Source of the DNA: Acidimicrobiia bacterium
Lineage (GTDB): Bacteria > Actinomycetota > Acidimicrobiia > Spongiisociales > JAHEDJ01
Length of the DNA: 62,682 nt
Direction of reading: 5' to 3'
NCBI GenBank assembly: GCA_035471805.1
Contig: DATIPS010000049.1
Location: 1 to 62,682 of the forward strand
Positions 10,231-14,913 of the stretch are shown piece after piece. A program made the translations under genes and the position numbers. Each line of letters begins with the position of its first letter. Position 1 is the first letter of the stretch. Under the pieces are notes generated by a model. It saw only the letters and a program-made list of their open reading frames with translations. It did no database searches and was not told the origin of the DNA.

Positions 10231-12042
10231 ATGCTCGCTCAGGTGGAATACCAGGCGCTATATCGCAAGTACCGGCCCCAGCGTTTCTCGGAGATCATCG
10301 GCCAGGGCCATGTGACCGAAACCCTGGCCCGGGAGGTCGTGGAAGACAAGGTCGCTCACGCCTACCTGTTCGCAGGCCCGCGGGGAACAGGCAAGACGAC
10401 CGCAGCCCGAATCCTCGCCAAGTCGTTGAACTGCACCAATCGCCAGGACGGCGGAGAGCCGTGCAATGTGTGTTCTTCGTGTGTCGGGATCACGGAGGGG
10501 TCGTCCCTCGACGTGATCGAACTCGATGCCGCCTCACACAACAGTGTCGACGACATCCGCGACATGCGGGTGAGCGTGTCGACCGTTGCCTCGGCAGGCG
10601 GCGCCAAGCGAGTGTTCATCCTCGACGAAGCGCACATGCTTTCGAAGGCTGCCGGCAATGCACTGCTGAAGACACTCGAAGAGCCTCCGGCACACGTCCA
10701 CTTCGTTCTGGCCACAACCGAGCCCTACAAGCTGCTCGACACGATCCGGAGCCGGGCCCAGCGTTTCGACTTCCACCCGGTATCGATAGGCGTGCTCGTG
10801 AAGCACCTCGACTCCATCTCGGACATCGAGGGCTATCGGCGGTCCGAGGAAGCGCTCGTCGCGGTTGCCCGGCATGCCCGAGGGTCCGTGCGCGACTCGA
10901 TGAGCTTGCTCGAGCAGGTCGCCGCTCTGGGCGAATCGAGCGTTGAGGTGGCCGGCGTGAACCGTGCCCTGGGGCTCGCCGACCGCGAGGTCTACAGCCG
11001 GCTCGGCTCGGCCGTGGCCGACCTGGACGCCCGGTCTGCCCTGGAGATGGTGGCGACCCTGTCGGCTGAGGGTGCCGATCTCCGCAGGTTCGCCGCCGAG
11101 GCGATTGCGTTCTTCCGTGGAGTGTTTCTCGTCAAATACGCTCCGAATCTCTCCGAAGTCGTGGACGAATCGGAAGATGTCATCGACGACTGGCGGCGTG
11201 TGGCCGACGAGCTATCTGCTTCCGACGTGCTCCGCGTGCTCGACATCATGTCGGAGGCCCTGATTCAACTGCGAGAAGGCCGGGAAGAGCGGCTGATGAT
11301 CGAACTGGCTCTCCTGAAGATGACCCGTCCGGAGGTCGCGTCCGATCCGTCGTCGCTTGCCGCCCGGCTCGAACACCTGGAGCAGCGCATGAAGCGGATG
11401 ACCGCCGGTGCGGCGGCAGCACCGCAGATTCCCGTTCCGAAACCCCTTCCGGCCGCGCCGGAACCGGTTGCCGTCCCGGCTTCCCGGGGGAAGGCTCCCG
11501 AGGAGGAGGTCGTTGCTCCTTCTGCTTCGGTCGCCGACGGCGCCGCAGACGAATCCCCGGAGGATTCGACTGAGGAGCCGGCCCCGGTCCCGGAAGCGGC
11601 CGCTTCGAAGGGGCCCGCCGCTACCACCGGAGAGGTCACCTTCCTCGACCTCCAGTCCGTCTGGCCCGCGCTGGTTGCCGGCGTTCGGGACATTCTGGGC
11701 TCGCGTCGCTATGCCCTCTTCCGCGAATCCAGCCCGGGAGCGGTCGAAGGCTCGATCCTGGTGATGCACCTGCCCGAGCACCGGAGTTTTCACCTGCAAC
11801 AGCTGAAATCCGACAACGTGGTGGCGGCGATCGTGGCAACGAAGGCTTCGGAACTCCTCGGTGTAGAAGTGACGGTCGAGTTCCGGACGGACGGGGAGCC
11901 GCAGCTCCCGGTGGTCCGTGAGGTACCGGTGATACCCGACAAGGACGACCTCGCCGAGGCCCCGGAAGAAGGAACCGATCCGACCAGCCTGATGTCCGAG
12001 TTCCTCGGAGCAGAGGTTGTCGAAGAGGTAGAGAACGACTAG
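10231..12042 (+). CDS. dnaX: DNA polymerase III subunit gamma/tau
   Basis: This is the clamp-loader ATPase subunit of the replicase, 603 residues. YQALYRKYRPQRFSEIIGQ opens the protein. Walker A is GPRGTGKTTAARI (about 50-62), a four-Cys zinc site follows (CTNRQDGGEPCNVCSSC), then Walker B FILDEAHMLSKAAGNALLKTLEEPP and the sensor region TTEPYKLLDTIRSRAQRFDF. Residues about 400-470 form a Pro/Ala/Glu-rich linker to a tau-like C-terminal domain. The ATG at 10231 and the GTG at 10243 are both possible starts. dnaX, ybaB and recR in this order is a widespread conserved cluster. No clear slippery site for a separate gamma form was found. Confidence 0.95.
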   Translation: MLAQVEYQALYRKYRPQRFSEIIGQGHVTETLAREVVEDKVAHAYLFAGPRGTGKTTAARILAKSLNCTNRQDGGEPCNVCSSCVGITEGSSLDVIELDAASHNSVDDIRDMRVSVSTVASAGGAKRVFILDEAHMLSKAAGNALLKTLEEPPAHVHFVLATTEPYKLLDTIRSRAQRFDFHPVSIGVLVKHLDSISDIEGYRRSEEALVAVARHARGSVRDSMSLLEQVAALGESSVEVAGVNRALGLADREVYSRLGSAVADLDARSALEMVATLSAEGADLRRFAAEAIAFFRGVFLVKYAPNLSEVVDESEDVIDDWRRVADELSASDVLRVLDIMSEALIQLREGREERLMIELALLKMTRPEVASDPSSLAARLEHLEQRMKRMTAGAAAAPQIPVPKPLPAAPEPVAVPASRGKAPEEEVVAPSASVADGAADESPEDSTEEPAPVPEAAASKGPAATTGEVTFLDLQSVWPALVAGVRDILGSRRYALFRESSPGAVEGSILVMHLPEHRSFHLQQLKSDNVVAAIVATKASELLGVEVTVEFRTDGEPQLPVVREVPVIPDKDDLAEAPEEGTDPTSLMSEFLGAEVVEEVEND

Positions 12043-12145
12043 GTGTCGGGTGCCGGCACCGCCGGTCGCCGGCCCATCGTGAGGACGGAGCCGTCCTGCC
12101 TCTCGAAGGACGAGGCTGAAGCCGGAGTGGTGATACCCTCTGACC

Positions 12146-12472
12146 ATGGGAATGCGACCTCAAGACATGCGCAAGCTGATGCAGCAGGCGCAGCAAATGC
12201 AGGAACAGCTAGCCGCTGCTCAGGACGAACTCGCCTCAGCCACGTTCGAGGGGAGCGCCGGCGGCGGTGTGGTCAAGGCCACGGTGACGGGATCGAACGA
12301 GATCGTCTCGGTTGAGATAGATCCCTCGGTGATCGATCCGGAGGATCCCGAGATGCTCGGCGATCTGGTGGTGGCAGCAGTCAACCAGGCGATCAAGAAC
12401 GCGGCCGATGCCGCCCAGCAGTCACTCGGCGGGCTGGCCGGAGGCCTTGATCTCGGTGGCTTGCTCGGCTGA
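12146..12472 (+). CDS. ybaB: YbaB/EbfC family nucleoid-associated protein
   Basis: This 108-residue small DNA-binding protein matches the family length. The N-terminal helix [20 protein letters not shown] and the strand region [20 protein letters not shown] are typical. The C-terminus is Gly/Leu-rich, as in many YbaB proteins. Its stop TGA overlaps the recR ATG by one base (TGATG), which implies translational coupling. It lies 103 bp after dnaX. Confidence 0.93.
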
Positions 12473-13065
12473 TGTTTGAGGGGCCGATTCAACGGCTTAT
12501 CGATGAGCTCGCTCGACTTCCCGGGATCGGCCGAAAGTCTGCTCAGCGTCTTGCCTTCCACCTCCTGAACGCCGAGGATGCCGACGCGCAGCGTCTGGCA
12601 AGCGCCATCGTCGACATGCGCACCCAGGTCCGGCTGTGCAGCCGGTGCTTCAACGTCACGGGTGCAGAGGAATGCTCGATCTGCCGGGACCTGCGCCGGG
12701 ATCCCACCCTCGTTTGTGTTGTCGAGCGGGCGCAGGACATCGTGGTCATCGAGAAGACCCAGGAGTTTCGCGGCCGCTACCACGTTCTGGGCGGCGCCCT
12801 CTCACCGATCGACGGTATCGGCCCCGGCCAGTTGCGGATCGCTGAGCTCAAGCACCGGATACCGAACGAGGGCGTGCAGGAACTGATCGTGGCGACCAAC
12901 CCGACCATCGAGGGCGACACGACCGCCATGTACCTGGCGCGCGAGCTGAAGCCGCTCGGGGTCCGGGTGACCCGGTTGGCCAGCGGACTCCCCGTGGGCG
13001 GGGACCTCGATTACGCAGACGAACTCACCCTCGGCCGGGCCCTGGTGGGCCGGCAGGAGATATAG
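12472..13065 (+). CDS. recR: recombination mediator protein RecR
   Basis: This 197-residue protein acts with RecF and RecO to load RecA at gaps. The helix-hairpin-helix [20 protein letters not shown] is followed by a four-cysteine zinc finger ([16 protein letters not shown]). A Toprim domain comes next: [16 protein letters not shown], then [18 protein letters not shown] and [13 protein letters not shown]. The family's usual length and order are kept. Confidence 0.96.
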
Positions 13066-13137
13066 GCGAGACACGGCCCGCAGGCGGCGCCCGAGCCACG
13101 GGCGATCCAGACGATGGGCGTCGCCTAGCCTCCCAGC

Positions 13138-14232
13138 ATGAAGATCCTCCTCATTGAGCCCTACTTCGGCGGCTCGCATCGGGTCTGGGCGGAGGGCTAC
13201 GCGGCGCACAGCAGCCACGAAGTCCGCCTTCTGACGATGCCGGCGAGGTTCTGGACCTGGCGGATGCGGGGCGGCGCAATCACGCTGGCGCATGAGACGG
13301 AGCTGTGGGTTGAAGAGAACGGCCGCCCCGACCTGGTGGTGGCGAGCGACATGCTGGACCTTCCCGCCTATCTGGGGGCGGCTCGCCGGGTGCTGGGCGG
13401 CACGCCGGCAGCCCTCTATCTCCACGAAAGCCAGTTCACCTACCCCTGGTCGCCGCAACTGCGCACCGACCTCCAGTACGCCTACGTCAACTGGTCCTCG
13501 ATGCAATCGGCCGACCTGATTCTGTTCAACTCGGCGTTTCACATGAAGGTCGTGTTCGAGAGCCTGCCCAAGTTCCTTCGCCAGTTTCCCGACTCCACCC
13601 ATGAGCATCTGGTCGGCGAGGTCCGGGAACGATCGGCGGTTCTGCACGTCGGCATCGATCTGCGACGATTCGATCGGGTTCCCTCCTCCCGGGGCGACGG
13701 CGCCCCGCTGATCCTGTGGAACCAGCGCTGGGAGCACGACAAGGATCCGGCTGCCTTCTTCCGGGCTGTGTTCGGACTCGCAGACGACGGTGTCGAGTTC
13801 AGGCTTGCCGTGTGCGGTGAGAACTTCCGGCAGATGCCCGAGGAGTTCGCGGAAGCCGAGCGGCGGCTTGCCGGCCACCTCGTCCACTTCGGTTTCGCGG
13901 CGGAGGACGAATATGTGCGGCTGCTCCGCGCGGCGGACGTCGTCGCCAGCACGGCGCTCCACGAGTTCTTCGGCATAGCGATTGTCGAAGCCGCCTACGC
14001 GGGAGCCTTCCCGGTGCTGCCCGACCGGCTCTCCTACCCGGAGTTGTTTCCCGAGACCCTTCACGAACGGGTGCTCTATCCGGAGGGCGGTCTTCAGGAG
14101 CGCCTCCGGTGGGCACTCACGCATCCTGCCGAACGCATGACGGTGGCGGCGGAGTTGAAGCAGTCGCTGACGGCGTTTGACTGGTCGGTGCTGGCCCCCC
14201 GCTACGACAGGCTTCTGGCAGCGCTGGCGTAG
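13138..14232 (+). CDS. tRNA-queuosine mannosyltransferase (GTDC1/QTMAN)-like glycosyltransferase
   Basis: This 364-residue GT-B glycosyltransferase resembles the DUF3524 family, whose animal member GTDC1 (QTMAN) adds mannose to queuosine in tRNA-Asp. The N-terminus ILLIEPYFGGSH, MPARFWTWRMRG at about 34-45 and YLHESQFTYP at about 94-103 match the N-terminal domain. NQRWEHDKDP at about 195-204 and HEFFGIAIVEA at about 275-285 match the donor-binding half. No queuosine biosynthesis gene lies in the window, so the acceptor is inferred from family only. A HAD phosphatase follows 18 bp downstream and is probably co-transcribed. Confidence 0.75.
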   Translation: MKILLIEPYFGGSHRVWAEGYAAHSSHEVRLLTMPARFWTWRMRGGAITLAHETELWVEENGRPDLVVASDMLDLPAYLGAARRVLGGTPAALYLHESQFTYPWSPQLRTDLQYAYVNWSSMQSADLILFNSAFHMKVVFESLPKFLRQFPDSTHEHLVGEVRERSAVLHVGIDLRRFDRVPSSRGDGAPLILWNQRWEHDKDPAAFFRAVFGLADDGVEFRLAVCGENFRQMPEEFAEAERRLAGHLVHFGFAAEDEYVRLLRAADVVASTALHEFFGIAIVEAAYAGAFPVLPDRLSYPELFPETLHERVLYPEGGLQERLRWALTHPAERMTVAAELKQSLTAFDWSVLAPRYDRLLAALA

Positions 14233-14250
14233 CGCTACCGTTCCGGACTC

Positions 14251-14913
14251 ATGCAGCACGTTGTCTGGGACTGGAACGGGACCCTCCTGAACGACCTCCA
14301 GCAGGTCGTTCTGTCCGTCAACGCCGCCCTCGCGTCGGTGGGCGTCGGCCCGATCGATGCCGACGGTTACCGGGCCGGATACACCCGCCCGGTCGTGCTC
14401 TTCTACGAGCACCTTCTCGGCCGTCCGGTCGGCGACGAAGAGTGGGAGCGGCTGGACATCACTTTTCACGACGCCTACCGGGAGGCGCTGGCCGGCGCCG
14501 AACTGGCCCCCGATGCTCTGGAAGCGATGGACCGGGTCGAAGCGGCCGGGTGGACCCAGTCGCTGCTCTCGATGTTCCCGCACAACGAACTGCTCGCTGC
14601 TCTCGACGAACACGGCATTGCGGACAGGCTCCTGGCCGTTGACGGCTTGCGAGGGGGGCGCGGCGAGCGGAAGTACGGCAGTCTCGTGAAACATCTGGAG
14701 CACGTCGCCCCCAAGCTCGGCGGCCGAATCGACCCGAAGACGGTGGTCATGATCGGAGACGCTCTCGATGACGCCGATGCCGCCGAGGGACTCGGAATCA
14801 GATGTGTCCTCTACGCCAGCGGATCCCACCCGCGCGAGAAGCTCGAAGCCTCGGGTCACCCGGTGGCCGGCTCGCTCATCGAGGCGCTGGCCCTGGCCGG
14901 GATCACAAGCTGA
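14251..14913 (+). CDS. HAD-superfamily phosphatase, phosphoglycolate phosphatase-like
   Basis: The protein has 220 residues. Motif I is DWNGTLLND (about 6-14), where Asp-Trp-Asn replaces the usual Asp-x-Asp. The second acidic position is therefore Asn, a known variant in some Gph-like proteins. Motif II is LLSMFPHNELL, the motif III Lys lies in GERKYGSLVKH, and motif IV is VVMIGDALDDADAAEG. The cap domain fits the phosphoglycolate or pyrophosphatase type. Substrate is uncertain. It is 18 bp downstream of the glycosyltransferase. Confidence 0.75.
   Translation: MQHVVWDWNGTLLNDLQQVVLSVNAALASVGVGPIDADGYRAGYTRPVVLFYEHLLGRPVGDEEWERLDITFHDAYREALAGAELAPDALEAMDRVEAAGWTQSLLSMFPHNELLAALDEHGIADRLLAVDGLRGGRGERKYGSLVKHLEHVAPKLGGRIDPKTVVMIGDALDDADAAEGLGIRCVLYASGSHPREKLEASGHPVAGSLIEALALAGITS

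Follow-up and report, generated by a model that had tools for sequence, protein, structure and literature searches.

A QTMAN-family glycosyltransferase in an Acidimicrobiia genome, predicted to act on queuosine in bacterial tRNA

The animal enzyme QTMAN (GTDC1) is a tRNA-queuosine alpha-mannosyltransferase (Zhao et al., Cell 2023, as cited in PMC12873605). It attaches an alpha-mannose to the allylic hydroxyl of queuosine (Q) at position 34 of tRNA-Asp (PMC12518689, PMC8654956). In the literature covered, mannosyl-queuosine (manQ) is described from animals only. No report of bacterial mannosyl-queuosine or of a bacterial QTMAN enzyme was found in the open-access literature searched, which is weak evidence because few subscription papers were covered. 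The family and its name already exist in Pfam, bacterial members included, and the defining domain QTMAN_N (Pfam: PF12038) carries the title 'tRNA-queuosine alpha-mannosyltransferase N-terminal'.

Here we describe a member of this family from an Acidimicrobiia bacterium (GenBank: GCA_035471805.1). The whole stretch of DNA analysed, 62,682 nucleotides of contig DATIPS010000049.1, is called the window. A first-pass annotation of the window had proposed that one of its open reading frames (ORFs) is a bacterial homologue of GTDC1/QTMAN. The ORF, its domains and its nearest neighbours are:

12472-13065, forward strand: recR, upstream neighbour of the QTMAN gene; this adjacency recurs in Acidimicrobiia
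13138-14232, forward strand: QTMAN-family glycosyltransferase, predicted tRNA-queuosine glycosyltransferase (ATG start, 364 aa; PF12038 and PF00534)
13141-13656, forward strand: QTMAN_N domain, N-terminal half, presumed acceptor side (PF12038; invariant S13-H14, W39, R42, H96-E97-Q99 and P103)
13672-14130, forward strand: GT4 domain, C-terminal half, presumed donor side (PF00534, residues 179-331; R197/K202 and E276-x7-E284)
14251-14913, forward strand: HAD-superfamily hydrolase, 220 aa (PF00702, E=4.3e-11), 18 bp past the QTMAN stop codon

The proposed homology is borne out by an end-to-end match to the defining domain: the first 173 residues of the ORF cover profile positions 1-168 of 168 of PF12038 with 186.8 bits (cut-off 25) and E=3.5e-55, followed by a Glycos_transf_1 domain (Pfam: PF00534) with 44.7 bits and E=1.3e-11. 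Judged from its sequence, the protein is a genuine QTMAN-family member with a C-terminal GT4 domain. The three motifs on which the proposal was based, HESQFTYP, NQRWEHDK and HEFFGIAIVEA, are all present in the order claimed, and they are conserved. A second genome belonging to this genus has an orthologue that is 77% identical, and inside one phylum family members go down to 36-40% identity. This second genome (G310; C24:5205-5714) carries QTMAN in two copies, of which one contains an in-frame TGA.

Aligning 27 relatives from the phylum showed that H96, E97, Q99, P103, W194, R197, W198, D201, K202, E276, G279 and E284 are invariant, including both glutamates of the E-x7-E motif. Across 81 aligned sequences drawn from many phyla, most motif residues are still conserved at 95% or more. 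E276, though invariant in the 27 phylum members, is not among them. The conserved residues include family-specific ones beyond the generic GT4 motif.

We consider it probable that the protein glycosylates queuosine-34 in tRNA, with mannose from GDP-mannose as the most likely sugar and tRNA-Asp as the most likely tRNA. Tgt, QueA and QueG would first install queuosine at position 34 of the tRNAs with GUN anticodons. The QTMAN_N half would then bind the Q-bearing anticodon loop via the family-specific residues, and the C-terminal GT4 half would bind the nucleotide sugar, held by R197/K202 and E276-x7-E284, which we take to be donor-holding residues from GT4 enzymes such as PimA. Mannose, with GDP-mannose as the likeliest donor, would be transferred with retention (alpha) to a cyclopentenediol hydroxyl of Q, and the likeliest tRNA to receive it would be tRNA-Asp. 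Co-occurrence with Q genes suggests Q as the acceptor of the bacterial enzyme. The choice of mannose, of the allylic hydroxyl and of tRNA-Asp follows the animal enzyme only.

Whole-genome searches for the genes that would supply the two substrates in the host genome gave the following hits:

C57:25937-26980 (genome G000): tgt (Tgt, 441.8 bits; NCBIfam equivalog cut-off 306.75), one copy in the genome
C57:24885-25880: queA (QueA, 355.8 bits; NCBIfam equivalog cut-off 267.45), one copy in the genome
C65:7458-8423: queG (QueG, 216.5 bits; equivalog cut-off 200)
C66, locus L120: GDP-mannose pyrophosphorylase (mannose-1-phosphate guanylyltransferase; GMP_PMI, 435.9 bits; cut-off 372.95), with a ManC beta-helix domain

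The genes queA and tgt adjoin each other downstream of ruvC-ruvA-ruvB. The first-pass annotation had noted that no Q genes lie in the window, which holds for tgt, queA and queG, found on C57 and C65 and not on the window's contig C49. It had also made the proposed function depend on the genome making queuosine, and by gene content the genome does so, with queA, tgt and queG all above their equivalog cut-offs. A genome lacking tgt and Q transport had been named as grounds for rejection; tgt is present here, with an adjacent queA and a queG. Because these genes and that of GDP-mannose pyrophosphorylase are present, the host is predicted to have both substrates of animal QTMAN, Q-tRNA and GDP-mannose.

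In a sample of 396 Actinomycetota genomes, PF12038 was detected in 32, which represent 28 genera and 14 families. In the same sample, 258 genomes have tgt and 270 encode a QueA domain. Since many QueA hits are weak (E ~1e-60 to 1e-75) and lie in genomes without tgt, full-strength queA was counted separately. All 32 QTMAN genomes have tgt together with full-length queA, against about 214 of the 396 overall, a background tallied by hand from both search tables. Per genome, the hypergeometric P is 5e-7 for tgt and 9e-10 for tgt with full-length queA, values which overstate the association because the genomes are related. Counted by genus, P for tgt is 1.4e-5. By family (hand tally) the association is much weaker, with P = 0.009 for tgt alone and 0.0009 when full queA is required as well. 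Among the tgt-positive genomes, 32 of the 214 that have a full queA carry QTMAN, against none of the 44 that lack one (P=0.002). This suggests that the requirement is for Q and not for preQ1.

QueG and QueH are unrelated last-step enzymes of queuosine synthesis. A clear QueG was found in 15 of the 32 QTMAN genomes and a clear QueH in 14, together 29 of 32. Two others have only a partial or broken QueG: that of G350 lies at a contig end and that of G003 contains an in-frame TAG. Neither a clear queG nor a clear queH was found in G325. QueG was searched with TIGR00276, which detected members; the short Pfam domain (PF08331) missed most. A reductase for this step is also common in the 15 QTMAN-negative Q-making genomes searched in parallel, so its presence serves as a consistency check and not as a discriminator. 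As a separate observation, many Actinomycetota without tgt (e.g. G302, G023 and G093) carry the weaker QueA-domain protein, and the 44 genomes counted above have tgt but no full-length queA. These are possibly QueA paralogues, or tgt in another role.

Beyond the phylum, an alignment-based scan of 84,980 species genomes found at least 581 relatives. The best 80 of these belong to Chloroflexota, Acidimicrobiia, Bacteroidota/Rhodothermota, Marinimicrobia (Fidelibacterota), Acidobacteriota and Desulfuromonadia. Cultured carriers among the relatives are Geothermobacter hydrogeniphilus, Flavilitoribacter nigricans and Phaeodactylibacter xiamenensis. Outside Actinomycetota, tgt was found in 47 of 50 QTMAN genomes; the other three are MAGs of unstated completeness. 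Of the 297 genomes in Anaerolineae, the class to which the Caldilineaceae genome G404 belongs, 141 have QTMAN and 291 have tgt. The overlap, 140 of 141, is consistent yet uninformative, since almost every genome of the class has tgt. One genome of this class (G598) has a strong QTMAN_N match (1.4e-62) and no detected tgt; either a contig is missing or this genome breaks the QTMAN-tgt rule. QTMAN is absent from all 14 control genomes, and these include the Q-makers E. coli and B. subtilis, so QTMAN is an accessory step. No relative was found in the viral contigs searched. In a quick tree the sequences cluster strongly by phylum (13 changes against a shuffled mean of 39), the pattern to be expected of an ancient bacterial family inherited mainly vertically.

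The AlphaFold2 model of the protein, built from a 27-sequence alignment, has a mean pLDDT of 93.1 and a pTM of 0.90, and its predicted fold is a plain GT-B/GT4. In the fold comparison, the model matches sucrose-phosphate synthase best (Z 33.2), then MshA (31.9), BshA (31.4) and a methylmannose polysaccharide mannosyltransferase (30.7). Among the many other GT4 folds to which it aligns are the GDP-mannose-dependent PimA (PDB: 2gej, 27.6) and PimB' (PDB: 3oka, 27.4). Sequence searches of the PDB found no QTMAN structure, and none was among the fold matches listed. The first-pass annotation had named the best structural match as a possible arbiter. GT4 enzymes look alike and no QTMAN structure was found in the PDB, so this match cannot discriminate the acceptor, and with more than 900 chains at Z 8 or above we rejected the fold for this purpose.

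An enzyme that glycosylates Q-tRNA with another sugar, such as glucose or galactose, or that acts on another tRNA (Asn, His or Tyr), would give a different hexosyl-queuosine. GT4 donor specificity varies, the best structural neighbours of the model are UDP-sugar and GDP-sugar users alike, and the low identities within the family leave room for such a change; the genome, however, encodes GDP-mannose pyrophosphorylase, and the top PDB sequence matches are PimA-like GDP-mannose enzymes, if weak (E ~1e-3) and in the C-terminal half only. We regard this alternative as possible and rather unlikely.

It is less likely still that the protein is a polysaccharide, glycolipid or small-molecule glycosyltransferase that merely shares QTMAN_N with the animal enzyme. 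Such a role would fit the fold, which is like that of MshA, BshA and sugar synthases, and also the NCBIfam GT4 matches, which include EPS_EpsE and HpsP. These best matches reach only 24-36 bits against cut-offs of 260-550, so no NCBIfam equivalog is reached, and the polysaccharide GT4 models are missed more than ten-fold (35.7 bits against a cut-off of 400 and 29.2 against 550); the match to PF12038 has 186.8 bits. Moreover, the neighbours are recR, ybaB and dnaX and not a polysaccharide cluster, and the confinement of QTMAN to genomes with tgt and queA in Actinomycetota would be unexpected of an envelope enzyme.

The dnaX-ybaB-recR genes (10231-13065 of the window) lie directly upstream, and recR is adjacent to QTMAN in several Acidimicrobiia loci (e.g. 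L003, L013, L018, L042, L053, L065 and L087). Unsupervised clustering of the neighbours at QTMAN loci gave clade-specific neighbours only. Of 80 loci surveyed, none had tgt or queA within 8 kb of the QTMAN gene, and the link to Q therefore has no support from operon structure. Downstream, the HAD ORF lies on the same strand at the 18 bp distance reported earlier and is probably co-transcribed with QTMAN. The sister genome from the same genus shows this arrangement too, and it also occurs at L015 and L049. Beyond the genus and a small number of relatives, no HAD gene lies beside QTMAN, so the hydrolase is a local neighbour; as a widely conserved partner it was ruled out, being confined to near relatives. 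That the two genes form a unit acting on a phosphorylated sugar substrate is therefore very improbable despite the shared strand, the short gap and the related loci, as a HAD gene stands beside QTMAN in just 2 of 80 loci and 3 of 30 phylum loci (the window's own counted).

The HAD hydrolase has DWNGT as motif I, with Asn replacing the second catalytic Asp. Typical HAD phosphatases have a catalytic Asp at this site. The protein scores 37 bits against the NCBIfam phosphoglycolate phosphatase model (cut-off 180). On the reverse strand, an open frame of 685 codons (12802-14859) spans both QTMAN and HAD. At 58 of 80 loci a comparable antisense frame faces QTMAN, most likely as a result of high GC and codon constraint.

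Taking queuosine glycosylation as the preferred reading, the tRNAs of some bacteria are probably also sugar-modified. We give somewhat better than even chances to a wider picture, in which hexosylated (probably mannosylated) queuosine is widespread in bacteria, in perhaps half of the Caldilineaceae/Anaerolineae class and in at least six groups, and the animal form is one branch of an old family that is also bacterial. If true, catalogues of bacterial tRNA modifications are incomplete, the role of manQ in decoding is open to study in simple cells by single-gene deletions, and the origin of animal QTMAN turns into a testable question.

Compared with known systems, MshA, BshA and sucrose-phosphate synthase have the overall fold of the window protein (Z 31-33) and differ in using UDP-sugar donors and small-molecule acceptors; their high Z scores reflect a shared fold only. 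PimA and PimB' share with it the GT-B fold and retaining GT4 chemistry, and both use GDP-mannose. They have only ~20% identity to the window protein, however, and their acceptors are lipids. For animal QTMAN the donor, linkage and tRNA specificity are known, whereas those of the window protein are proposed by homology, and animals salvage queuine, whereas the bacterial host has a Q pathway. Like the window protein, animal QTMAN consists of a full-length QTMAN_N followed by a GT4 domain, and both of its substrates, Q-tRNA and GDP-mannose, are predicted to be supplied in the bacterial genome.
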